Shown here: in pieces, positions 717 through 11,260 of the stretch
Position numbering within the stretch: position 1 is the first letter of the stretch
Layout of the letters: each line of letters begins with the position of its first letter
Assembly: GCA_946633275.1 (NCBI GenBank)
Contig: CAMPAT010000001.1
Location: forward strand, 1 to 15,326
Source of the DNA: an uncultured Clostridia bacterium
GTDB taxonomy: Bacteria > Bacillota > Clostridia > Oscillospirales > Acutalibacteraceae
Direction: 5' to 3'
DNA length: 15,326 bases
Notes under the pieces: model-generated
The model's database searches: none
The model's input: only the letters and a program-made list of their open reading frames with translations
Told to the model about the DNA's origin: nothing
Made by a program: the position numbers and the translations under genes

Positions 717-1985
717 TTATTGAATCTTATAAAGCTTTGCGCCGTGAGGAGCTACGGTAACGGTAAGGTCGGCGACCTTGCCGATTTCTTTTTTATCCCA
801 GATATCGTAGACTGTGCCTCCAAAGTCGAAGGTGATGTCTCTCTCCGTATCGCCCGTGTTGAAGAGCGCGGCGTATTTGCAGCCGTCGCCGTCGGACGTC
901 CAGATGACTTTATCGCCATCGCGGAGAAGCTCACGCGCATTTTCCGAATTCTGATTCATATTCATATACTCCGCATTAGTGAGGAGCGAGAGAGTGAACT
1001 CGTCGTTTTCAGGCAGGTTTCCGCCGACCATAAGCGGACTGCGGAAAATTCCCCACAAAGTCATAAGCGTATAATGTTCAGGCACGGTAAACTGACTCAT
1101 ACGGTTATTCGGGCCGTAGTAAGTGCTGTTCTTCGCAATTCTGCCTATCGGGAGCATATCGCAATCGGGGAAGCTGCCCTGGGCAGTTACGCCCTGCCAC
1201 AGCTCGCACTTGTCAAACATATCATAAAGCTTGTCCCACACGTCCCAGAAGTCACCCGTAAGGCGCCACATATTAGCATTCTCCGCAAGGTGCTCAGCCT
1301 TATCGCGAAGCGCAGGACCCGGAGACAGAGAAAGCACAATCTTCCGTCCGCAGTTATCGATAGCTTTACGGAGCATTTCAATCTCATAATCCGCGGAATA
1401 AGGATTATCCCACTTGCGAAATTCCGTAACGCATATATCGTCGCACTTGATGAAGTCGACGCCCCACTCGGCGTACATATTAATTATTGAGTTATAATAC
1501 TGCTGTGCCGCGTCGCAATTCTTCACGCCGTACATATCGGTATTCCAGGAGCACACGGAAAAATGGTGCGCAATCTCACGGCAGGTTGAGCTACTGCCGT
1601 AAATCGGGCAGTTTTGCGCCACAGCCTGACGCGGCACTCCGCGCATAATATGAATGCCGAATTTAAGTCCGAGCGAGTGAATGTACTCAGAAAGCGCAGT
1701 AAAGCCTCTTCCGTCCTTCGCGCTCGGGAAGCGGTTTGGCGCAGGCATAAGTCTGCCATACTCGTCCATACACAGCTCTGCGAAATTATGATAATCGTTA
1801 TTATCGGCTGTCGGCTCGTACCATTGAATATCGCATACGACATATTCCCAACCGTACTGCTTAAGCTCTCTTGCCATATATTCCGCATTTTCTCTGATTT
1901 GCTGTTCAGTTACTGCTGCGCCGAAACAGTCCCAGCTGTTCCAGCCAAGCGGCGGTTTCTTCGCCCACGATTTAAACTCTTTCAT
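717..1985 (-). CDS. GH27 alpha-galactosidase-type glycoside hydrolase
   Basis: 422 aa; hydrolyses alpha-galactosides (or related beta-L-arabinopyranosides, which some GH27 members prefer). No signal peptide is visible, so it is probably cytoplasmic and acts on imported oligosaccharides. The N-terminus PPLGWNSWDCFG (residues 11-22) is the GH27 hallmark, followed by YVVCDIQWYEP (about 48-58), GLKFGIHIMRGVPRQAV (106-122) and WGVDFIKCDD (174-183), where Asp182 of K-C-D is the expected nucleophile. RLTGDFWDVW (241-250) carries the likely acid/base Asp245. A short beta-sandwich tail (about 355-422) ends the protein. The start chosen is ATG 1983-1985, with GGGAGGTG 5 nt upstream; the frame continues upstream to a TTG at 2006, but that codon has no ribosome binding site and would put the Shine-Dalgarno inside the gene. 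It has its own promoter and lies downstream of the GlmS-like gene. The family call is firm; exact sugar specificity is not. Confidence 0.92.
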   Translation of the reverse strand: MKEFKSWAKKPPLGWNSWDCFGAAVTEQQIRENAEYMARELKQYGWEYVVCDIQWYEPTADNNDYHNFAELCMDEYGRLMPAPNRFPSAKDGRGFTALSEYIHSLGLKFGIHIMRGVPRQAVAQNCPIYGSSSTCREIAHHFSVCSWNTDMYGVKNCDAAQQYYNSIINMYAEWGVDFIKCDDICVTEFRKWDNPYSADYEIEMLRKAIDNCGRKIVLSLSPGPALRDKAEHLAENANMWRLTGDFWDVWDKLYDMFDKCELWQGVTAQGSFPDCDMLPIGRIAKNSTYYGPNNRMSQFTVPEHYTLMTLWGIFRSPLMVGGNLPENDEFTLSLLTNAEYMNMNQNSENARELLRDGDKVIWTSDGDGCKYAALFNTGDTERDITFDFGGTVYDIWDKKEIGKVADLTVTVAPHGAKLYKIQ

Positions 1986-1990
1986 ACTTG

Positions 1991-1998
1991 CACCTCCC
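1991..1998 (-). promoter_or_regulatory. Ribosome binding site fixing the GH27 start
   Basis: GGGAGGTG on the - strand, 5 nt before ATG 1983-1985. It is a near-perfect anti-16S match and excludes the upstream in-frame TTG at 2004-2006 as the main start. Confidence 0.85.
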
Positions 1999-2013
1999 GG
2001 GCTCAATGCAAAT

Positions 2014-2047: not shown

Positions 2048-3811
2048 TTATGACGCCGCGGCAGTATTATCCTCGCATTCTTCATCGGCGCTGCGCAGCA
2101 GGAGCGAAAGCTTATACGAAGCGGCAACGCACGACAGCGCGTCATATATCGGGAGAGTATCGTTCACGCTAATCACCGTGTCAAAAGAGCTAAGCTCTTC
2201 TTCAATATTATCCGTCGTAAACATAATAATTTTTGCGCCGAGAGTTTTAATCCTGCTGAGCATAATGTCGCAGGCAGGCGCTCTGTCCTTATTCGTAACA
2301 AACGCAAGGACGACGGCGCCGCTCAAGCTCGCCTTATCATAACCCGACAGCTCGCCCAAAGGCAACGCAGAGCAGCTTCTGCAGGAAATCCTGCGCAACT
2401 TCTCCGCCGCTTCACGGGACGCCGCATAATCGGTGCCTACTCCGCAGAAGAATAGTTTTTCTGCTGATAAAATCATATTAACGGCGCTCGCAAACGCAGT
2501 ATTCTCCTTAACTGCAGAAGCGATTTTGCCTGCGATTATCTCCGCCATCTTAATTGCGACGTTGAGATAAAGGTCGTTAACAACGCTGTCCTTGACCCCG
2601 ATATACAGCGAAAAGAGCGCAAGAGAAAAGCTCTGAGCAATAAACGAGCTGAGCGAAATGTCGCCGGGAAAATCGCCGCCTGTACAAAGAACTTTGTCGC
2701 ACATAAGGGCAGCCGAGGAAAGCTCACTCGCCGTTACGGCAAGCGTTTTTGCGCCTGCCGCCTTCGCGCGCCTGACAGAGGCGAGGGTTGAATAACCTTC
2801 GCCGCGTTCCGTCACGGCAACAAGGAGAGTATTCTTATCTAAAACGCCTTTCGCATACATAAACTCGCCCGAAGTGTACGCAAACGATGGAATATCAGTC
2901 ATCAGTTCAAGCAGATTGCGGCAGTACAGCGCGGAGTTATACGACGAGCCTTCGCCAACGAGGATAATACGCGAAAGCTTTTCAACGCTCCTGCGCGAAA
3001 GCTTCAGGAAATCGAAGCTCAGCTTTGAATTTTTAATCAGATTTCTGTACACGTCCTTTGCAGTAACCGAGCAGGAATAAAGCTCGTTGTCAAGACTGAA
3101 GTCACTCTCAAAATACGGCTTGTCCGGCACAGGCAAAAAGCTCTTTTTCATCTTCCGCGCTTTTGCGTCAAAGAAGCTCAGCTTTTCGCCGCGCAGCTTA
3201 ACAATCTCGCCGTTACCGACGGCAGCGTACTTATCACAAAAGCGGCAGAGCGAAGAAAGCTCGCTTGAAAGATAAACGCCGCTTTCTCCCATTCCTGCAA
3301 ACAGAGGTCTGTCTCCTGCACAGGCATAAACCGCACTTTCATCAGCGCTGATAAAGGCAAAGCCGGGGGCACCGAGAAGCGCCGCTCTCACCTTACGAAT
3401 GAGCTCAAGCTTGTCCTGCAAATCAGTAATGCAAAGGCACGCAAGGAGCAATTCTTCGTCCGTATTGATAGCAAAAGGCTCCCTGCTCCAGCGCTTAAGC
3501 GAGCGGAAATTCTGAATACTTCCGTCGCAAACAACGGCGTACATATTATTAGAAGCAGGTGAAACTGACGTTTTTGAAGAAGTCCTGACGAGTTGCGCGG
3601 TCTGCGCTATGCCGCAGCTTCCCTCGGCAACGTGCTTCGACGCCTCGCATAACTCAGGAACGCCGCCCGTCACCCTTGCGGTACTGAAGCCGTCCTTAAC
3701 CTTTACGGCAACTCCGTTCGCTTCGCCTCCGCGGTGCTGCATAGAAGACAACCCTTCTGCGAGAATCTTCTTCGGGTCTTCCCTGCCGATATATGCAAAT
3801 ATACCACTCAT
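2048..3811 (-). CDS. GlmS-like pseudoenzyme (degenerate glutaminase plus two SIS domains)
   Basis: 587 aa, close to the length of glucosamine-6-phosphate synthase (about 600), with the same order: class II glutamine amidotransferase domain (1 to about 235) and two SIS domains (about 275-420 and 445-570). The N-terminus MSGIFAYIG aligns with GlmS MCGIVGYIG, but the nucleophile Cys is Ser2. The glutamine-binding HTRWATHG region has become QTAQLVRT (70-77), and HNG has become CDG (95-97). In SIS1 the sugar-phosphate motif SQSGET is TERGEG (334-339). In SIS2 the catalytic Glu (E. coli Glu488) aligns with Arg474 and His504 with Gly490, and the C-terminal DQPRNLAKSVTVE tail is absent. Both half-reactions should therefore be dead, yet the frame is intact. 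Start ATG 3809-3811 has AGGTG 6 nt upstream; an in-frame GTG at 3820 is rejected because that Shine-Dalgarno overlaps it. It begins 9 nt after the spoIIE stop, so is probably co-transcribed with it. Function unknown; a regulatory or scaffold role is inference. Confidence 0.85.
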   Translation of the reverse strand: MSGIFAYIGREDPKKILAEGLSSMQHRGGEANGVAVKVKDGFSTARVTGGVPELCEASKHVAEGSCGIAQTAQLVRTSSKTSVSPASNNMYAVVCDGSIQNFRSLKRWSREPFAINTDEELLLACLCITDLQDKLELIRKVRAALLGAPGFAFISADESAVYACAGDRPLFAGMGESGVYLSSELSSLCRFCDKYAAVGNGEIVKLRGEKLSFFDAKARKMKKSFLPVPDKPYFESDFSLDNELYSCSVTAKDVYRNLIKNSKLSFDFLKLSRRSVEKLSRIILVGEGSSYNSALYCRNLLELMTDIPSFAYTSGEFMYAKGVLDKNTLLVAVTERGEGYSTLASVRRAKAAGAKTLAVTASELSSAALMCDKVLCTGGDFPGDISLSSFIAQSFSLALFSLYIGVKDSVVNDLYLNVAIKMAEIIAGKIASAVKENTAFASAVNMILSAEKLFFCGVGTDYAASREAAEKLRRISCRSCSALPLGELSGYDKASLSGAVVLAFVTNKDRAPACDIMLSRIKTLGAKIIMFTTDNIEEELSSFDTVISVNDTLPIYDALSCVAASYKLSLLLRSADEECEDNTAAAS

Positions 3812-3817
3812 AAATGT

Positions 3818-3822
3818 CACCT
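3818..3822 (-). promoter_or_regulatory. Ribosome binding site of the GlmS-like gene
   Basis: AGGTG, 6 nt before ATG 3809-3811, overlapping the last two bases of the spoIIE TAG stop. This placement selects the ATG start, which puts the residue after Met in register with the GlmS nucleophile, and suggests translational coupling to spoIIE. Confidence 0.7.
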
Positions 3823-5935
3823 AATTCCTTTCAAGCTTTGCATAAATAATACTCATATCGTCAAGTTTCTTCCCATCACCGTCGCGCATAGCGCGCGTCA
3901 GAACTGCGTCCGCAGTCTCCTGCACACCGAGACCGTCGAGCGAAAGAAGAGTCTTCTCAACCCAGTCTCTGCCGAGGTCTGTTATACCGTCGCTCATAAG
4001 GACTATGCTGTCGCCCACGCCGAGCACCGCAGTCCGCTTCGCAAATTCAACGCCGCGCAGTATTCCTGCGGGCATAGAGGTAAGCTCGCAGCTCGTTATT
4101 CCTCTGTTTTTAATTATGAAGCTTGCAGGCGCGCCTGCTTTGTATATTTCAAGCTTCCCCGTATATAAATCTATGCTCGCAATATCGAGCGTGGCGAGAC
4201 TTTCGTCATTACTCTTCACAAGCAGAGCGGAATTAACTACCTTCAGCGCGCTGTCGTAGCCGAAGCCTGCGCTGATTAATTTTGAAATAAGTCCTGCGCC
4301 CATCGCGCCGTCGAGCGCGGCACGCGAGCCTTTGCCCATACCGTCGCTGATAATGAGCAGGCTATGTCCTCTGCCGTCGCTCACGACCTTTACCGTATCT
4401 CCGCAAAGGTTGCCCTCCGCGCTGTGCTGAGCAAAGCCGACAGAAAGGCGGAAGTTCGCACGTTCTGTATAAAGGAGCATAGTTTCGTCCTTAAAATTCG
4501 TAATCCGTGGCGCGTCAAAATACCGCCCGACTGTTTTCCCGATTTCGTCGCACAACTTTTTCTTATCGGCGAGCGCAGTATCGCTCGCAGTCAGAATTTC
4601 AATCCTGATTCTACCGAACTTGTCCTCAATTACGGAAACGTTGCTCGCAAAAATATCATAATCGCCGAGAAGCCGCCTGATTTTTGCGGCAGAGACCGTA
4701 TCAAATATTTCCGACTCGTCGAACTCAAACGCAAGATTTTCAAGCATATCGGCGATTGAGAAGAACTGGTCTGACGCCACCATACGAATCTGATTTGTTT
4801 TTTCAAGCACTATTTCGCGGCGGATATACTCCTCGTCAGTAAGCTGCGCGCGGTCGTAATCGTTTTTCTGACGTGTAATCTCATTAATCCTCTCACGCAC
4901 CGTATCAACGCTCTCGCTGATTGCCGCCATAGCTGAAGAGGCGAAACGGAGCTTAAGCACAAGGTTTTGTCTGAGCGAGCCGTCAGGCGCTTCGTTCTCA
5001 TTAACCGAAAGCGACTGCGAAAGCTTTTCGTTTACCCTTGACGGAAGCAGCACAAACACGAGCGTAGCCGCTGCGCACTCAACGAACAGAGGTAGCGACA
5101 GCTCGCTTCCTGAAGCTGCGGCAAAAAAGCCGACGGAGCAGAGAAAGCTCAGTCCCACTCCGAAAACTGACAGCGAGCCGAACAGCGACGCCACAAGCGC
5201 AGAAAAAGCAAAAGCGCCGCATACAAAGAGCGTATTCTCACTCGCAAGCGACATCGAAAAACCGAGCGACAGCGCGAGGATAACGGCGCGTCTTTCTCCG
5301 GCGTAGCGCACGGCGATAAGAATAAGAAGCATAGCCGCGCCGCGCGCAGGACAGATACTGCCGAAGCTAAGCGCAGACAAATTCATCAGCACAATTCCGA
5401 GAGATATCACAATACAGCTCACGTCGCTAATCGGAAGCGCGCGAAGGCGAAGCCGCTTATAGCTTGAATTAATGCTTCTGTAAAAGAAGAAGGCTCCGCC
5501 GCTGCACAAAACTGCTTCGCTGAGTAAGAGCACGTAATCGCTGAAGCTTCCGCCGAGGCTGAGTCTGAGCACAACGCCGCTGACTAAATCCGCAAAAAAC
5601 GCAACCGCCATAACAAAAAGCGGCTTATGATAAATTTCAAAAGCCGCCGCAGCAAACGCGCCGAGGAGCGCCAGAGTAATGCCTGCAAGCTCTCTTGCAT
5701 TTTCGGCACTAATCCCCCTCAGAGCACACCCGAGCGCCGCGCCTGCCGCGGCAAAAGGAAAGAATTTTTTCGGCGCAGCGGCAGTAAGCGAAATCCCGAA
5801 CGGAGTTATATCGCCCACAACTTTCCCGAAGCTCAGCGCAAAGCCTGCCGAAAAATATGCAAAGTAAAATAATAGTCTTTTTGCGTTTTTCTTCTGTTCT
5901 GTTTTCCTGAGTAAAGTTTCCTGTAAAACAGCCAT
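3821..5935 (-). CDS. spoIIE: Stage II sporulation protein E, membrane serine phosphatase
   Basis: 704 aa (B. subtilis SpoIIE is about 827). SpoIIE localises to the asymmetric septum and dephosphorylates SpoIIAA-P, which frees the forespore sigma factor F. Seen: a basic N-terminus, then about ten hydrophobic segments between residues 20 and 297, a soluble linker with a likely helical regulatory region (about 325-400), and a C-terminal PP2C/SpoIIE phosphatase domain (about 495-704). Metal-binding motifs are present: GNLCGDTV (Asp513), ISDGMGKG (529-536, Asp531), MSDGITD (647-653, Asp649) and DDMSII (692-697). The start ATG at 5933-5935 has AGAGGA about 7 nt upstream. The phosphatase catalytic core looks intact. 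It is the first gene of an operon with the GlmS-like gene and is divergent from the GH3 gene. Its presence implies an endospore-forming ancestry. Confidence 0.93.
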   Translation of the reverse strand: MAVLQETLLRKTEQKKNAKRLLFYFAYFSAGFALSFGKVVGDITPFGISLTAAAPKKFFPFAAAGAALGCALRGISAENARELAGITLALLGAFAAAAFEIYHKPLFVMAVAFFADLVSGVVLRLSLGGSFSDYVLLLSEAVLCSGGAFFFYRSINSSYKRLRLRALPISDVSCIVISLGIVLMNLSALSFGSICPARGAAMLLILIAVRYAGERRAVILALSLGFSMSLASENTLFVCGAFAFSALVASLFGSLSVFGVGLSFLCSVGFFAAASGSELSLPLFVECAAATLVFVLLPSRVNEKLSQSLSVNENEAPDGSLRQNLVLKLRFASSAMAAISESVDTVRERINEITRQKNDYDRAQLTDEEYIRREIVLEKTNQIRMVASDQFFSIADMLENLAFEFDESEIFDTVSAAKIRRLLGDYDIFASNVSVIEDKFGRIRIEILTASDTALADKKKLCDEIGKTVGRYFDAPRITNFKDETMLLYTERANFRLSVGFAQHSAEGNLCGDTVKVVSDGRGHSLLIISDGMGKGSRAALDGAMGAGLISKLISAGFGYDSALKVVNSALLVKSNDESLATLDIASIDLYTGKLEIYKAGAPASFIIKNRGITSCELTSMPAGILRGVEFAKRTAVLGVGDSIVLMSDGITDLGRDWVEKTLLSLDGLGVQETADAVLTRAMRDGDGKKLDDMSIIYAKLERN

Positions 5936-6085: not shown

Positions 6086-8509
6086 ATGGGATTAATGGAT
6101 AAGGTTAAAAGCAAAGTAAGCGATACTATTTCAACTATTACATCTACCTCGCAGGCTGAAAACGCAGGCGTTGACGGCGGCGGAGTTATCACCGAAGAGA
6201 TTAAGCGCCTTTGCAGGCAGTCTGCGGCAGAAGGCGCAGTACTCATCAAAAACGACGGAGTTCTTCCGCTTAAAAAAGGGACTGTTGTGTCGCTCTTTTC
6301 GCGCACACAGCTTGACTGGTTTTTCGTAGGCTACGGCTCAGGCGGCGACGTTAACTGCCCGTGCAAGGTAAATCTTGCAGACGGAATCAGGAACTGCGAA
6401 GAGCTTGAACTTAACGAAAAGCTCGCTTCAATCTACGAAGAATGGATTAAAGACAATCCTGCTAACCACGGAGTCTGGGGAACCTGGCCATACAGCCAGA
6501 AAGAAATGCCGCTCGACATAATTACCCTCCAGAACGCAAAGAGCGGCAGCGACACCGCAGTAGTATCAATCGGCAGAGCCGCAGGCGAGGACAGGGACTC
6601 TGCGTACGAAAACGGATGTTACCTTCTCTCAGACGGTGAAATTGAAATGCTCGACATCGTCTGCGACAATTTCGACAAGGTAATCGTTCTGCTCAATACA
6701 GGCGGCACTATCGATATGTCCTGGGTCAAGAAATACGGCGATAAAATCGGCGCGGTTATGTACGTTTTCCAGGGCGGAATGGAGAGCGGAAACGCGATTG
6801 CAGACCTGCTCTGCGGAAAAGTGAACCCGAGCGGACGACTCGCGGACACAATCGCAAAAAGCTACTTCGATTACCCGTCAAGCGAAAACTTCGGCGGCAG
6901 GAACGTAAATGTTTATGAAGAGGATATCTTCGTTGGATACCGCTATTTTGAGAGTTTTGACAAAAACAACGTGCTTTACCCCTTTGGTTTCGGTCTTAGC
7001 TATACCGATTTTGACATAAGCTACGTTGACACAGAGGCTTTTGACGACGGCTTCGAGGTAACAGTCAAGGTTACTAACATCGGCGACCGCAGCGGCAAGG
7101 AGGTCGTTCAGCTCTATGCCGAAAAGCCGTGCGGAAAGCTCGGTAACCCGTCGAGAGAGCTCGTTGCATTCGCAAAGACTAACGAGCTCAAGACTACTGA
7201 AAACCAGGAAATCAAGCTCTGGGTTGACGCATATCAGCTCACATCATTTGACGACTGCGGCTCGACAAATCACGCGGGAGCATATGTAGCCGAGCAGGGC
7301 GAATACTCCTTCTACCTCGGCAAGAATGTCCGCGAGGCTGAAAAGGTATTTTCATATTATCAGGAGGAGACAGAGGTTTACGCTCAGCATAAGCAGGCTG
7401 CCGCGCCGCAGGAGCACTTTGAAGTGCTTCACGCCGAGATTATCGGCGGCAAAATGGTGCTGCGCAAGAAAGCTGTCGCAAAGCAGAAATACGACCTCGG
7501 CACAAGAATTAACAACAATCTGCCAGAAGATATCGAAATCAAAGGCGATATGGGTTACAAGCTCATCGACGTCAAAGACGGCAAGGTATCTATGGAGGAA
7601 TTCGTCTCCCAGCTCGACATAGACGAGCTTGAAGCAATTACTCGCGGCGATTACAAGATGGACAGTCCGCTCGGCGCGAAAGGTAACGCAGGAGCTTACG
7701 GCGGAGTGCTCGAATCCCTGCGCAACAAAGGTATCCCTGCCGTCATCACTACTGACGGACCTTCCGGAATACGACTTGCGGCAAACTGCTCGCTCATTCC
7801 GATTGGCACGCTTCTTGCCTGCTCATTCAACACAGAGCTTGTCGAGGCGCTTTACGGCGAGATTGCAAAGGAAATGAAGGACAGAGGAAGCGACGTTCTC
7901 CTCGCCCCGGGACTCAACATTCACCGAAATCCTCTTTGCGGACGTAATTTTGAATACTACAGCGAGGACCCGTACATAAGCGGCAAGATGGCTGCAGCAG
8001 CAGTAAGAGGCATTCAGAGCACAGGGCTCTCGGCTTGCCCGAAGCACTTTGCCTGCAACAACCAGGAAATGCGCCGCGTGAAGAACGACAGCCGACTTTC
8101 GGAAAGGGCTCTGCGCGAGATTTATCTCAAAGGATTTGAAATCTGTATCAAAGAGGCTAAGCCGAAAAATATTATGACGTCGTATAACCGCATTAACGGC
8201 GTTTACGGTCACTACAATTACGACCTTTGCACGACCATTCTCCGCGGTGAATGGGGATACGAGGGCAACGTCATGACAGACTGGTGGATGCAGAGCGAGC
8301 GCAGCCCTGAAAACCACGCAGTTAAAGACCAGGCGTACAGAGTAAGAGCTCAGGTTGACCTCTTTATGCCCGGCGGCGCGAGAGTGACGAACCGCAAGCC
8401 GGACGGCACGCTGCTCTCATCTATGGGCAAGCCCTTCGGCATTACGCTCGGCGAAATTCAGCGCAGCGCAATGAATATCCTGAATTCAGTAATTGAAATT
8501 AAATTATAA
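6086..8509 (+). CDS. GH3 beta-glucosidase-type enzyme with inverted domain order
   Basis: 807 aa, no signal peptide, so cytoplasmic. GH3 enzymes release terminal beta-linked sugars, typically glucose from cello-oligosaccharides. The domain order is reversed relative to most GH3: the alpha/beta sandwich comes first (about 35-300, with AAEGAVLIKNDGVLPL at 47-62, GRAAGEDRD at 163-171 carrying the likely acid/base Glu168, and YPFGFGLSYT near 298-307). A fibronectin-III-like domain (about 310-420) follows, then a linker, then the TIM-barrel domain (about 490-800) with ITTDGPSGIRL, the Lys653-His654 substrate-binding pair in KHFACNNQE, and the nucleophile Asp732 in VMTDWW. The same circularly permuted arrangement is known for Ruminococcus albus and Butyrivibrio beta-glucosidases. 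ATG 6086 has GGGTGG 4 nt upstream; an ATG at 6095 is a weaker alternative. Substrate preference cannot be read from sequence. Confidence 0.93.
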   Translation: MGLMDKVKSKVSDTISTITSTSQAENAGVDGGGVITEEIKRLCRQSAAEGAVLIKNDGVLPLKKGTVVSLFSRTQLDWFFVGYGSGGDVNCPCKVNLADGIRNCEELELNEKLASIYEEWIKDNPANHGVWGTWPYSQKEMPLDIITLQNAKSGSDTAVVSIGRAAGEDRDSAYENGCYLLSDGEIEMLDIVCDNFDKVIVLLNTGGTIDMSWVKKYGDKIGAVMYVFQGGMESGNAIADLLCGKVNPSGRLADTIAKSYFDYPSSENFGGRNVNVYEEDIFVGYRYFESFDKNNVLYPFGFGLSYTDFDISYVDTEAFDDGFEVTVKVTNIGDRSGKEVVQLYAEKPCGKLGNPSRELVAFAKTNELKTTENQEIKLWVDAYQLTSFDDCGSTNHAGAYVAEQGEYSFYLGKNVREAEKVFSYYQEETEVYAQHKQAAAPQEHFEVLHAEIIGGKMVLRKKAVAKQKYDLGTRINNNLPEDIEIKGDMGYKLIDVKDGKVSMEEFVSQLDIDELEAITRGDYKMDSPLGAKGNAGAYGGVLESLRNKGIPAVITTDGPSGIRLAANCSLIPIGTLLACSFNTELVEALYGEIAKEMKDRGSDVLLAPGLNIHRNPLCGRNFEYYSEDPYISGKMAAAAVRGIQSTGLSACPKHFACNNQEMRRVKNDSRLSERALREIYLKGFEICIKEAKPKNIMTSYNRINGVYGHYNYDLCTTILRGEWGYEGNVMTDWWMQSERSPENHAVKDQAYRVRAQVDLFMPGGARVTNRKPDGTLLSSMGKPFGITLGEIQRSAMNILNSVIEIKL

Positions 8510-8567: not shown

Positions 8568-9926
8568 TTATTCTAACTGAGTGTAAAATGCGTTCAGCAC
8601 CGTCTGCATAAGGAAGTCTTCGTCGGGATAAAACTCGGCATATACGATATCCTTATACTTCGCGTCAGGCACAGGCGAGGATTTCATCTCGCCTTTGAGC
8701 ACGACTGAATCGAAGTTCCTGATATTCTTCGAAAGCAGGAGCGAAGCCATATATGTGGCGTTACTGAGAGTGAGATTAGTCCTCGAATAATTCTTCGAGA
8801 TATTATAGAGCCTTGATACTGTCGAAAAATCTCTGACTACTGCAGGGAGCGCCTGATTTGAATACGCTTTTACATACTGTATCTGACGGTCCGTACGGTT
8901 AAGAGAAGCCTCGAGATAATCCGTATCACGCGTTCTGACGTACTTCTCCGCCATATCGCCCTTGAGCGTTACAGGGTCGCCCACGCTGACGCCGTATTCA
9001 GGGAAAGGATAAAGCGAATTTGATATCTCAACGCCGCCGATTGCGTCGTTAAGCGGCGCAATACCGTCAAGGTCGAGCGCAAAATACTTGTTTATCGGAA
9101 CGTTATTGAGAATACGGCTCATCGCGTCCACAGTATTCTGACAGCTGAGCTCTCCTCCGTCGCCATAAGCATATGCAAGACAGAGCTGCGCCTTATCCGA
9201 CTTAAGAAGAAGTCCCGTTTCGGGGCTGTACATATCCACATCTACCATAGTATCACGCGGAATTGCGATAACATTCGTCTTACCCGTCTCCGTATCAATC
9301 GCGATTACGATATCCGCGTCGGAAGCGCCGATAAAGTCAGTCTCATCGACAGTCTGAAGTTTTCGCGCGTCTATGCCCTCGAAAGCGAAAGCAACAATAT
9401 TTTCGTTATACTTATACTTATGTCCGCCGTACTCGATAATTTCCTCGTACTTAGTCTGCTCGGTCACGGCAGGCATAATATCCTTCTTACCTAAACTCTT
9501 AAGTACCATAAAAGTACCGAATACCGTACCAAGCGCGAGAAGAAGCACGAGCAGAATAATTATCGCAACCCTGATTGCCGTCGGGAGCTTACGCTTTTTC
9601 TTCTTTTTACTGCCCGATGACGAATGGTGATGGCTCGAAGAATGATGGTGATGATGACTCGAAGAATGATGATGGTGGTGGTGATGATGGTGAGAACGGC
9701 GCTCCGCCTTCTCCCTTTCCGCCTCAGCCACAGCTTCATGATAGCTGCGCACATCCTCCTTAAACTCGTGGTACTCTTCTTCTGCCTGCGTCGCAGATGA
9801 AGCTTCGCCGTCAATATCAGATGCGTCGCCAAGCTCATTGAGCTTGAGCGGTGACGTGCTTTTCACGGTATTAAGAATTTCATCTTCGCCATATCCGGCA
9901 AGATTAGGGTCAATTTGTCTTTTCAT
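8568..9926 (-). CDS. LytR-CpsA-Psr (LCP) family glycopolymer transferase with His/Ser-rich tract
   Basis: 452 aa. LCP proteins transfer lipid-linked glycopolymers to peptidoglycan or, in some bacteria, to surface proteins, outside the membrane. Order: acidic cytoplasmic N-terminus (1-75); a tract of nine His, SSS, five His, SSS, three His, SSS (79-104); a basic stretch KKKKKRK (107-113); a single membrane helix (about 117-143); and the extracellular LCP domain (about 178-355). Family motifs are ASDADIVIAID (201-211), VIAIPRDTMVDV (219-230, Arg224 and Asp225), IGGVEI (296-301) and the Arg-rich KYVRTRDTDYLEASLNRTDRQ (about 328-348). The type II single-helix topology fits the family; the His tract does not belong to it and would lie in the cytoplasm. 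Start ATG 9924-9926 lies inside the end of the sortase gene (17-nt overlap) with only GGAG 12 nt upstream, so translation is probably coupled to the sortase. Confidence 0.9.
   Translation of the reverse strand: MKRQIDPNLAGYGEDEILNTVKSTSPLKLNELGDASDIDGEASSATQAEEEYHEFKEDVRSYHEAVAEAEREKAERRSHHHHHHHHHSSSHHHHHSSSHHHSSSGSKKKKKRKLPTAIRVAIIILLVLLLALGTVFGTFMVLKSLGKKDIMPAVTEQTKYEEIIEYGGHKYKYNENIVAFAFEGIDARKLQTVDETDFIGASDADIVIAIDTETGKTNVIAIPRDTMVDVDMYSPETGLLLKSDKAQLCLAYAYGDGGELSCQNTVDAMSRILNNVPINKYFALDLDGIAPLNDAIGGVEISNSLYPFPEYGVSVGDPVTLKGDMAEKYVRTRDTDYLEASLNRTDRQIQYVKAYSNQALPAVVRDFSTVSRLYNISKNYSRTNLTLSNATYMASLLLSKNIRNFDSVVLKGEMKSSPVPDAKYKDIVYAEFYPDEDFLMQTVLNAFYTQLE
9624..9692 (-). repeat. His/Ser-codon low-complexity tract inside the LCP gene
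   Basis: Codons 79-101 encode nine His, three Ser, five His, three Ser, three His, written with mixed CAC and CAT codons. The pattern His(n)-Ser(3) is repeated three times with n falling from 9 to 5 to 3. The mixed codons suggest an old or selected tract as well as a slippage-prone one. Confidence 0.9.
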
Positions 9927-10707
9927 CCTTAGTTAATACTCCGCATACTAAATATCTGTTATTTCTCTGATTCGTAAAACAGGTCGACAAAATAACAAGC
10001 TTGTCGTCATTATTAAGCCGTCTGCCGAAATTCTCGCGTACATTCTTATTATTAGTCTCCGGCGACTGCACCATAGAAAGAAAATTCGCGAGCACGGCAG
10101 TATCATTAAGCTGGAAGCAATTCAGAATATGCCTGTCATCAAACTTGAACGCAGAAACAATCTGATAAGTCAGCTTCCTGTTCGGCATATAGATATAAAA
10201 CTCGCCGTGCTTGTTGAAGAAATCTTTCCCCTCAAACTTATGGAGCGTAGTAAACATCGTGTCACCGTAGCCGTTATGACCGTACACGACAGTTACGCTG
10301 TCGTTAAACGTATCCGTATTTCCGAGCTCGGTATAAATCGCGCCGCTCGACGCCCACTTCTTAGTATAAGCGTCGTGCTTAAGGTAAAAGTTATCGTCCT
10401 CGGGGTGCTGCACGACGGGATAATCCACCTTTGTACCGGGGACCTTAAGCCAGGCGTAAATGTCGCCGTTCTTCTTATGAAGCGACTCAAAGTCAATCGG
10501 GTTATCAGCATACTGCAGGGCAGTAGTTGTGGCGGCAATGCTCGAAGCAAGCTCGTCGCTCTGGCGCGCAGAATACTGATTATAAAGATAATATCCGAGA
10601 TACACAGAACCTGCAATAACAAGCAGAATACCGATAAATATCAGTATCCCCCTGCCTCTGCGGCGGTCGTCATCGTCGTTATTAATATTGTTAATCTCTT
10701 CACTCAT
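9910..10707 (-). CDS. srtB: Class B sortase
   Basis: 265 aa transpeptidase that cleaves a sorting motif on secreted proteins and links them to the cell wall. Order: acidic and Asn-rich N-terminus, basic RRRGRG (15-20), signal anchor (about 20-42), then the sortase domain (about 68-260). Typical class B features are NPIDFESLHKKNGDIYAWL (69-87), VDYPVVQ (94-100), NFYLKHD (106-112), GAIY (122-125), catalytic His144 in VVYGHN, Cys243 in LSTC and Arg251 in NNRYLV. The frame extends to a TTG at 10728; ATG 10705-10707 (MSEEIN) is preferred because it begins the normal cytoplasmic leader, though no strong ribosome binding site precedes either. It sits just behind the terminator of the gene for a small SPKTG protein, its likely substrate, and overlaps the LCP gene by 17 nt. 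No separate promoter is visible. Confidence 0.93.
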   Translation of the reverse strand: MSEEINNINNDDDDRRRGRGILIFIGILLVIAGSVYLGYYLYNQYSARQSDELASSIAATTTALQYADNPIDFESLHKKNGDIYAWLKVPGTKVDYPVVQHPEDDNFYLKHDAYTKKWASSGAIYTELGNTDTFNDSVTVVYGHNGYGDTMFTTLHKFEGKDFFNKHGEFYIYMPNRKLTYQIVSAFKFDDRHILNCFQLNDTAVLANFLSMVQSPETNNKNVRENFGRRLNNDDKLVILSTCFTNQRNNRYLVCGVLTKDEKTN

Positions 10708-10732
10708 AATAATCATTCTTAAAAACAATTAA

Positions 10733-10765: not shown

Positions 10766-11260
10766 TTACTCTTCGTTCTTCTTTCTTGCTACTGCAAGGA
10801 TTGCAACGCCTGCGCCTGCTACTGCGATTGCCGAAGCAGTTGCCGCACCGGTCTTAGGTGATTTCTTATTGCCGTTGCTCTTCTTCTTTGAAGTAGTAGT
10901 GTTCTTAACGATAGCGTTAGCGATTACTTTACCGTCATAGTCGTTAAGGAGCTGAATTGTAATCTTATTACCCTCTTCGTAAATAATCTTATAATCCTTA
11001 CCTTCGGTCATACCCGGGAATTCCCAGCCTTGGAGCTCACCGTCGCCGGTATATTCAAAAGTAATCTTAGTCGGGTCTTCAGGGTCCTTAGTAACCTTAA
11101 TGTCGTCAGACTCGTTACCGTTAACTTCAGTAACAATCGGATTTTCCTGCGTCGGATGCTCAGGACTTACTACGCCGCCTGCTGCAAAAACAGAAGTTGC
11201 AAAGCATAAAACAGAAACAAGCATAGCCGCTGAGACTAAAACAGAAATAAGCTTTTTCAT
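10766..11260 (-). CDS. Small secreted protein with sortase sorting signal (SPKTG)
   Basis: 164 aa. Residues 1-26 are a signal peptide (KK, then a hydrophobic core ending SVFA, cleavage expected before Ala27-Gly). The mature part (about 27-120) is acidic and beta-rich looking, with an Asp/Glu/Pro/Thr-rich segment (VTKDPEDPTKITFEY); no family was recognised. A Lys/Ser/Asn linker (121-133) leads to SPKTG (134-138), a hydrophobic stretch AATASAIAVAGAGVAILAVA (139-158) and a charged tail RKKNEE: the three-part cell-wall sorting signal. SPKTG resembles the NPKTG/NPQTN motifs used by class B sortases more than LPXTG. The next gene encodes a class B sortase, its probable processing enzyme. Start ATG 11258-11260 has AGAGGTG 7 nt upstream, and the gene has a strong promoter and its own terminator, suggesting high expression. 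Confidence 0.88.
   Translation of the reverse strand: MKKLISVLVSAAMLVSVLCFATSVFAAGGVVSPEHPTQENPIVTEVNGNESDDIKVTKDPEDPTKITFEYTGDGELQGWEFPGMTEGKDYKIIYEEGNKITIQLLNDYDGKVIANAIVKNTTTSKKKSNGNKKSPKTGAATASAIAVAGAGVAILAVARKKNEE

Follow-up and report, generated by a model that had tools for sequence, protein, structure and literature searches.

The gene immediately downstream of spoIIE in the window (the whole 15,326-nt stretch of DNA analysed here) encodes a protein that keeps the full-length GlmS fold and has lost both active sites. Related genes are tightly linked to spoIIE throughout the genus, group with active GlmS encoded at the same spot, evolve under purifying selection, and possess a new conserved junction signature that is common to full-length and trimmed, double-SIS forms. 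That a dead GlmS is kept behind spoIIE suggests an additional, non-enzymatic role connected with spore formation. We tentatively favour the reading that the window protein works as a non-enzymatic protein partner of SpoIIE, although we hold it somewhat short of an even chance.

The window gene and its junction with spoIIE

The pseudoenzyme gene (2048..3811, minus strand) encodes 587 aa from an ATG at 3811, or 590 aa from a GTG at 3820, the start being uncertain by these three codons; residues are numbered here from the ATG (alignment numbers, which follow the GTG start, minus 3). An earlier, sequence-only reading of this DNA had described an intact ORF of GlmS length without frameshift, and the frame (2048–3820) indeed runs through 587 or 590 codons with zero internal stops. 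The GlmS model TIGR01135 aligns over positions 2–568 of its 607 at 189.8 bits, under its cut-off of 418, and the NagB-II type deaminase model NF046059 yields 34.5 bits, not reaching its cut-off of 430. In line with the architecture proposed earlier, structure prediction returned a full-length GlmS fold composed of a glutaminase and a double-SIS part (pLDDT 88.9; TM 0.85/0.82 to E. coli GlmS, 2j6h). A domain profile search found no DNA-binding domain in the window protein, so it does not have the architecture of RpiR/MurR-type sensors; the MurR/RpiR model matches at residues 318–378 only. Where the source annotation names these proteins, it lists them as SIS domain-containing protein and nothing more, and the family has thus gone unnoticed in annotation. 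The window is contig 1 of a 1.16-Mb, 62.5% complete assembly, and the closest named relative (65% identity) is Eubacterium sp. RGIG5812, a MAG from sheep ileum.

Both catalytic centres are degenerate (Cys1, Lys485, Glu488, His504, Lys603 and so on are E. coli GlmS numbers). In the glutaminase (Ntn) domain (3137..3811, minus strand; ~residues 1–225), Cys1 is replaced by Ser2, HTRWATHG by QTAQLVRT and HNG by CDG, with Arg26-Gly27, Gly99 and Asp123 retained. In the double-SIS, isomerase-like part (2078..3109, minus strand; ~residues 235–578), the former sugar-phosphate loop SQSGET reads TERGEG (2795..2812, minus strand; residues 334–339), Arg474 and Gly490 take the places of Glu488 and His504, and Ala602/Lys603 are not kept; Lys485 is. 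Compared with GlmS (TIGR01135; E. coli 2j6h/1jxa; human GFAT-1), the window protein therefore lacks Cys1, HTRWATHG, Glu488, His504 and Lys603. The alignment reproduced every loss named in the earlier reading, from the Cys nucleophile and the HTRWATHG/HNG motifs to SQSGET, Glu488/His504 and the C-terminal tail.

The upstream spoIIE gene (3821..5935, minus strand) encodes 704 aa with a membrane N-terminal part and a PP2C phosphatase domain, and exceeds the cut-offs of both PF07228 (91.7 bits; cut-off 25) and SpoIIE_N PF19732 (28.7 bits; cut-off 27). Its score against TIGR02865 (229.4 bits) falls under the equivalog cut-off of 490.8, which was reached in 0 of 80 genomes of the genus, marking SpoIIE as divergent throughout. 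spoIIE terminates at 3821 on the same strand, 9 nt ahead of the ATG at 3811, just as read from the sequence alone, and a Shine-Dalgarno-like GAAAGGA within its end (3826..3832, minus strand) precedes the ATG by 14 nt and the GTG by 5 nt. Regions upstream of spoIIE showed no enrichment of the classical Spo0A box (1 of 69, against a shuffled mean of 1.9), and control of the gene pair through such a box was dropped from consideration. At 41 nt behind the pseudoenzyme lies a melibiase-like gene (717–2006, minus strand); as a member of this family follows in 10 genomes, counting the window, transcription may continue into it.

GlmS-derived genes behind spoIIE across the genus

We searched 80 draft genomes of the genus for SpoIIE and GlmS and retrieved the surroundings of spoIIE. 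It lay on a retrieved contig in 76 genomes (window counted), two of which (G087 and G071) end behind spoIIE, leaving 74 testable cases. In 67 of these, the next gene downstream on the spoIIE strand was GlmS-derived. Active GlmS accounted for 17, belonging to an alpha (14 genomes) or a beta lineage (G086, G031 and G061, the last split across two frames). Another 23, window included, were full-length pseudoenzymes (two cut by a contig end and one, in G019, with an in-frame stop), and 27 were double-SIS proteins of ~320–370 aa that lack the glutaminase domain (two truncated at a contig end). One further short row (G003), the 28th, is a contig-edge fragment without spoIIE that clusters with the full-length pseudoenzymes and stands outside the 67. 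The remaining seven genomes (G083, G027, G017, G094, G081, G095 and G074) carried no GlmS-like gene behind spoIIE, which in G074 is itself broken up; hence, the linked gene is not essential to the pathway everywhere.

Adjacency to spoIIE and catalytic loss thus recur together in 23 linked homologues, where the sequence-only reading had left open a peculiarity of one strain. Together with 25 database clusters at 35–65% identity (partly the same proteins as the genus set), this rules out a strain-specific oddity or a frameshift artefact. Beyond the genus, glmS and spoIIE were never adjacent in the 14 order genomes with both positions listed (different contigs; 2.5 Mb apart in G044). Among 200 family genomes, a second GlmS match at the spoIIE locus was confined to the window's genus and G170, from a sister genus (leaving aside a second match in G246 and split matches in G298). 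Of seven family genomes examined outside the genus, G170 alone had a GlmS-like pseudo form behind spoIIE, truncated where the contig ends. In another family genus, G153 (L168) harbors an active glmS, grouping with beta, 1.5 kb from spoIIE and convergent with it, so closeness alone can arise without an operon.

Inactive forms sit tighter against spoIIE than linked active GlmS. The gap measures 17–157 nt (median 29; n = 14) for alpha and 76–116 nt (n = 3) for beta active GlmS, compared to −4 to 19 nt with one of 290 nt (median 5; n = 23) for pseudoenzymes and −4 to 51 nt (median 2; n = 26, of 27) for double-SIS forms. Open frames and tight coupling are found in 49 genomes (22 of 23 pseudoenzyme and 27 of 27 double-SIS loci; four cut by contig ends). 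The spoIIE/GlmS-derived pair is the sole constant of these loci, other neighbours being common within subgroups and different between them; for instance, a GH3 gene precedes most pseudoenzyme loci. The window's GH3 glycosidase gene (6086–8506, plus strand), divergent from spoIIE, has a permuted domain order with the C-terminal before the N-terminal domain, and its cluster comprises 19 ORFs near spoIIE, mostly in pseudoenzyme genomes.

At the position of Cys1, the 23 linked pseudoenzymes carry 19 Ser, 2 Gly, 1 Thr and 1 Asn but never Cys, and none keeps HTRWATHG. Among the 21 with sequence in the region, His504 is kept in none, Glu488 in 5 and Lys485 in 11; Glu501 is kept in 17 of 23. The catalytic residues are kept in all 46 unlinked and 17 linked active GlmS wherever sequence reaches (G061 was not scorable at the last ones). 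Loss of the same set from 23 linked homologues, set against its retention in 46 unlinked GlmS, goes beyond chance. As Ser can serve as Ntn nucleophile in other families, the frequent Ser at Cys1 and the partial retention of Lys485 and Glu501 might point to a pocket remodelled for a new SIS- or amidase-type reaction. We consider such a different enzyme very unlikely, given that no alternative conserved catalytic set was seen, that the former active-site columns show average conservation, and that two losses of the glutaminase domain left the rest in place.

Active GlmS shows some of its strongest conservation at the active-site columns (entropy near 0). For the 21 pseudoenzymes, the fraction of random column sets as low was 0.49 (glutaminase), 0.30 (SIS1) and 0.49 (SIS2), i.e. 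conservation was average, and in 22 double-SIS forms the former active-site columns fell below average (0.86 for the SIS1 columns; 0.90). These values speak against a metabolite-sensor model, in which a double-SIS pocket still able to bind a sugar phosphate (or UDP-GlcNAc) would signal the supply of wall precursors to SpoIIE or to sporulation entry. Raised in the sequence-only reading, it did not hold up as a general account, is disfavoured as such, and appears unlikely to us. Its best case is the window's own subclade of eight, where the SIS1 loops (VGEGSSYN-like and S-x-R-G-E-T-like) are conserved above average, a level that a fraction of 0.008 of random sets matched (several sets were tried, of which this is one); in addition, the double-SIS form of G005 retains SQSGE. 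However, the 399–404 pocket loop is below average even in this subclade (0.97), and the shared signature described below lies away from the former pocket columns. Sugar-phosphate sensing would, judged from these alignments, fit the window subclade at most.

As anticipated from the sequence, the window's genome does contain a second, active-looking glmS, on contig C178; it is cut by the contig end, with catalytic residues intact as far as sequence reaches, and absence of active GlmS from this genome is ruled out. Linked active GlmS was the sole GlmS found in 17 of 17 genomes. An active GlmS, whole or partial, was found elsewhere in 21 of 23 genomes with a linked pseudoenzyme, the exceptions being G006 (73% complete) and G013 (88% complete), and one was found elsewhere in 25 of 27 double-SIS genomes, all but G079 and G080 (each >400 contigs). 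The 12 of 46 unlinked GlmS placed in a tree were all beta, and the remaining ones are likewise 38–44% identical to alpha. A glmS ribozyme preceded 9 of 20 unlinked loci searched, all nine in genomes with a double-SIS form or no linked gene, in contrast to 0 of 14 linked loci searched (window plus 13 active-linked); none was detected at the six unlinked glmS loci searched in pseudoenzyme genomes. Separately, no GlmS-scoring match was listed for some genomes of 97–98% completeness, including G083 (L041) and, in the wider family, G139, G141 and G152, which suggests that these near-complete genomes depend on amino sugars from outside.

Co-occurrence with an unlinked active GlmS would be expected if the pseudoenzyme formed mixed oligomers with that enzyme and tuned amino-sugar synthesis in sporulating cells. 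The same co-occurrence would be just as expected had the unlinked enzyme done no more than free the linked one, and the link to spoIIE exists also where the linked gene is the sole GlmS. In genomes with all three genes near whole, distances among linked proteins tracked those of SpoIIE with unlinked GlmS partialled out (r 0.825 for 12 of 23 pseudoenzyme genomes and 0.83 for 22 of 27 double-SIS genomes; 0 of 2000 permutations as strong in each set). Partial correlations with unlinked GlmS given SpoIIE reached only 0.32 and 0.25, and the window protein is 21–26% identical to unlinked GlmS. Of the suggested partnership with a real GlmS, the enzyme's presence in the genome thus stood and the partnership itself found little support; we rate a regulatory subunit as quite unlikely. 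The covariation with SpoIIE is suggestive only, as shared locus history and a slowly evolving control gene can also produce it.

Ancestry, selection and a shared junction signature

In a tree of full-length proteins (63 rows; support by SH-aLRT only), a single clade (100) holds 21 pseudoenzymes and joins alpha and the linked G170 protein (100), with long branches present, and beta falls with the GlmS of two further genera (97). A tree of the SIS part (SH-aLRT only) unites all inactive forms in one clade (99), sister to alpha (together 99), again with long branches. Five double-SIS forms are nested in the pseudoenzymes and the other 22 form a clade of their own (100), indicating that the glutaminase domain was lost twice. 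An RpoB tree of 25 genomes, of 32 searched, recovered the pseudoenzyme genomes with those of the five-member group (100/100) and the other double-SIS genomes with G027 (100/100). It placed both inactive groups together at 84/84, with alpha genomes outside and G170 unplaced.

An ancestral active form and a single catalytic loss make the simpler history, which rests on the less well supported branches, such as the 84/84 in RpoB, and is not proven. Indeed, a SpoIIE tree puts the inactive forms at the base and G170 inside the genus; its root comes from very long outgroups and is unsafe, and it leaves room for two losses or for a dead ancestral form as well. In the same tree, the three beta-linked genomes (G086, G031 and G061; L045, L058 and L089) are nested inside the alpha clade, apparently reflecting in-place replacement of alpha by beta, which is ~40% identical.

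Selection was assessed as dN/dS by NG86, where values near or over dS 1 are rough, yet all lie far from 1. Six of seven pseudoenzyme pairs gave 0.11–0.32 (one was saturated), with 0.14–0.15 at dS ~1.2 for the least diverged pair (G084/G067). Six of nine double-SIS pairs gave 0.09–0.14, with three saturated (YN00 up to 0.18) and the closest pairs at dS 0.3–0.8. For comparison, ratios were 0.03–0.10 for linked active GlmS, 0.03–0.05 for unlinked GlmS and 0.02–0.19 for SpoIIE. Inactive linked forms are thus under purifying selection (dN/dS ~0.1–0.3), at ratios exceeding those of linked active forms. The earlier suggestion that selection kept the fold without catalysis fits these values, none of which approaches 1.

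Some features would suit a slowly decaying relic, i.e. an old gene that lost its function once the unlinked GlmS had taken over and is now simply carried along by spoIIE translation. It evolves much faster than unlinked GlmS (mean distance 1.27 vs. 0.18 in 12 genomes), its dN/dS exceeds that of linked active forms, and two domain losses, several complete losses and one in-frame stop have occurred. Yet dN/dS of ~0.1–0.3 at high dS, which disfavours an unconstrained relic, together with the open, tightly coupled frames in 49 genomes and a signature newly gained and common to inactive forms, leaves this explanation highly improbable. Barely credible is a polarity or expression device, in which translation of a long downstream frame, rather than its product, sets spoIIE mRNA stability or coupling: the very tight spacing (medians of 2–5 nt) would agree with it, but purifying selection acts at the amino-acid level and the confidently predicted folds are conserved.

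Full-length and double-SIS inactive forms match each other as profiles (E 8.4e-44 over 318 columns), and the predicted fold of a double-SIS form (pLDDT 89.4) has the GlmS isomerase domain as its nearest structure. Across 48 inactive forms, the shared residues are Gly405 (45), Tyr415 (43), Arg348 (40), Lys407 (40), Lys421 (35) and Asn557 (42; Asp in the window protein). In active forms, position 405 is Ala in all 17 linked proteins and in 44 of the 46 unlinked ones; among the 17 linked ones, position 415 is Phe in 14 and position 407 Lys in 4. Four of the six shared residues fall in the SIS1/SIS2 junction, which in the window reads LYIGVKDSVVNDLYLNVAIKMAE (2540..2608, minus strand; residues 402–424), a signature that the double-SIS remnants have too and that active GlmS mostly lack.

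A possible partner of SpoIIE

The lineage looks spore-forming, with spoIIAB, spo0A and spoIVA above cut-off in 65, 71 and 65 of 80 genomes, respectively; looser spoIIAB matches occur in 79, and such matches also occur in non-spore-formers. Of these three genes, only spoIIAB was found in the window's own 62.5% complete genome. A role of the linked pseudoenzyme in sporulation, as the sequence-only reading had it, may follow from its place behind spoIIE. The ancestor may have been a bifunctional spoIIE-linked GlmS that had, or gained, a non-catalytic role related to SpoIIE; with GlcN6P synthesis passing to an unlinked GlmS, selection would have continued to act on the second job of the linked copy alone. 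Putative translational coupling would yield the linked protein together with SpoIIE, and its double-SIS body, which probably dimerises as GlmS does, would bind SpoIIE, perhaps via the junction signature. Bound, it might stabilise, position or switch the phosphatase at the sporulation septum, a site of wall-precursor use, and the glutaminase domain would be dispensable for this role.

In Bacillus subtilis, RodZ, SpoIIQ and FtsZ are further known SpoIIE partners, and neither they nor GpsB are GlmS-like. There, SpoIIE is reported to form a complex that links division and peptidoglycan synthesis through GpsB (PMC7349982), and PMC5468089 describes its switching via dimerisation of its regulatory region. 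A double-SIS dimer made beside SpoIIE could conceivably act on a GpsB-linked complex or on such a dimerisation switch. As presented in PMC5468089, the pseudophosphatase RssB, with its PP2C switch, also keeps the fold, has lost catalysis and plays a regulatory role; unlike RssB, the window pseudoenzyme derives from amino-sugar metabolism and is tied to spoIIE.

Several points count against a partner of SpoIIE: the seven genomes without a linked gene, the divergent SpoIIE, the lack of Spo0A-box enrichment, the in-frame stop in G019, a rate covariation confounded by the locus, and dN/dS above the 0.03–0.10 of linked active forms. Still, we rank this role above that of a sensor. A related possibility, which we find rather doubtful, is that active GlmS belongs to the SpoIIE machinery in its own right where it is the sole GlmS, coupling amino-sugar supply to sigma-F activation or the septum. 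Elsewhere, the jobs would have been split and the linked copy left dead, at first full-length and then twice trimmed to a double-SIS form. If so, the genus would preserve, as a natural record, how a moonlighting enzyme came to lose its day job. A SpoIIE partner, if real, would be new and would bridge wall-precursor metabolism directly to the first sporulation switch, and this in a lineage where sporulation has apparently received little study. With active, dead full-length, dead trimmed and lost states, the genus offers a densely sampled series for how an enzyme becomes a pseudoenzyme.

Literature searches, which covered few subscription journals or preprints, returned no report on SpoIIE together with a SIS domain and, judging by titles and abstract starts, no GlmS pseudoenzyme or spoIIE–glmS unit; the portions available of PMC3789822 and PMC13046274 likewise contain nothing on either. 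In architecture, the 27 double-SIS remnants resemble NagB-II, AgaS and FrlB, stand-alone double-SIS isomerases or deaminases. In contrast to these enzymes, however, 4 of 4 remnants tested match GlmS models first, with NagB-II a weak third match of one, and 32 aligned relatives keep a KEIF-x-Q stretch resembling the KEIYEQP helix of GlmS.

The smaller double-SIS group comprises five genomes, and in four of them (G012, G005, G093 and G092; near L127, L123, L131 and L163) the unlinked glmS is within 2–5 kb of another sporulation gene, spoIIAB. The window itself further encodes a LytR-CpsA-Psr family protein (8571–9926, minus strand) with a natural poly-histidine/serine stretch ahead of its membrane segment, in which single runs reach nine His. 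Also present are a class B sortase (9913–10728, minus strand) and, beside it, a small secreted-looking protein (10766–11260, minus strand) that ends in an SPKTG-type motif and a hydrophobic tail and is perhaps a sortase substrate.
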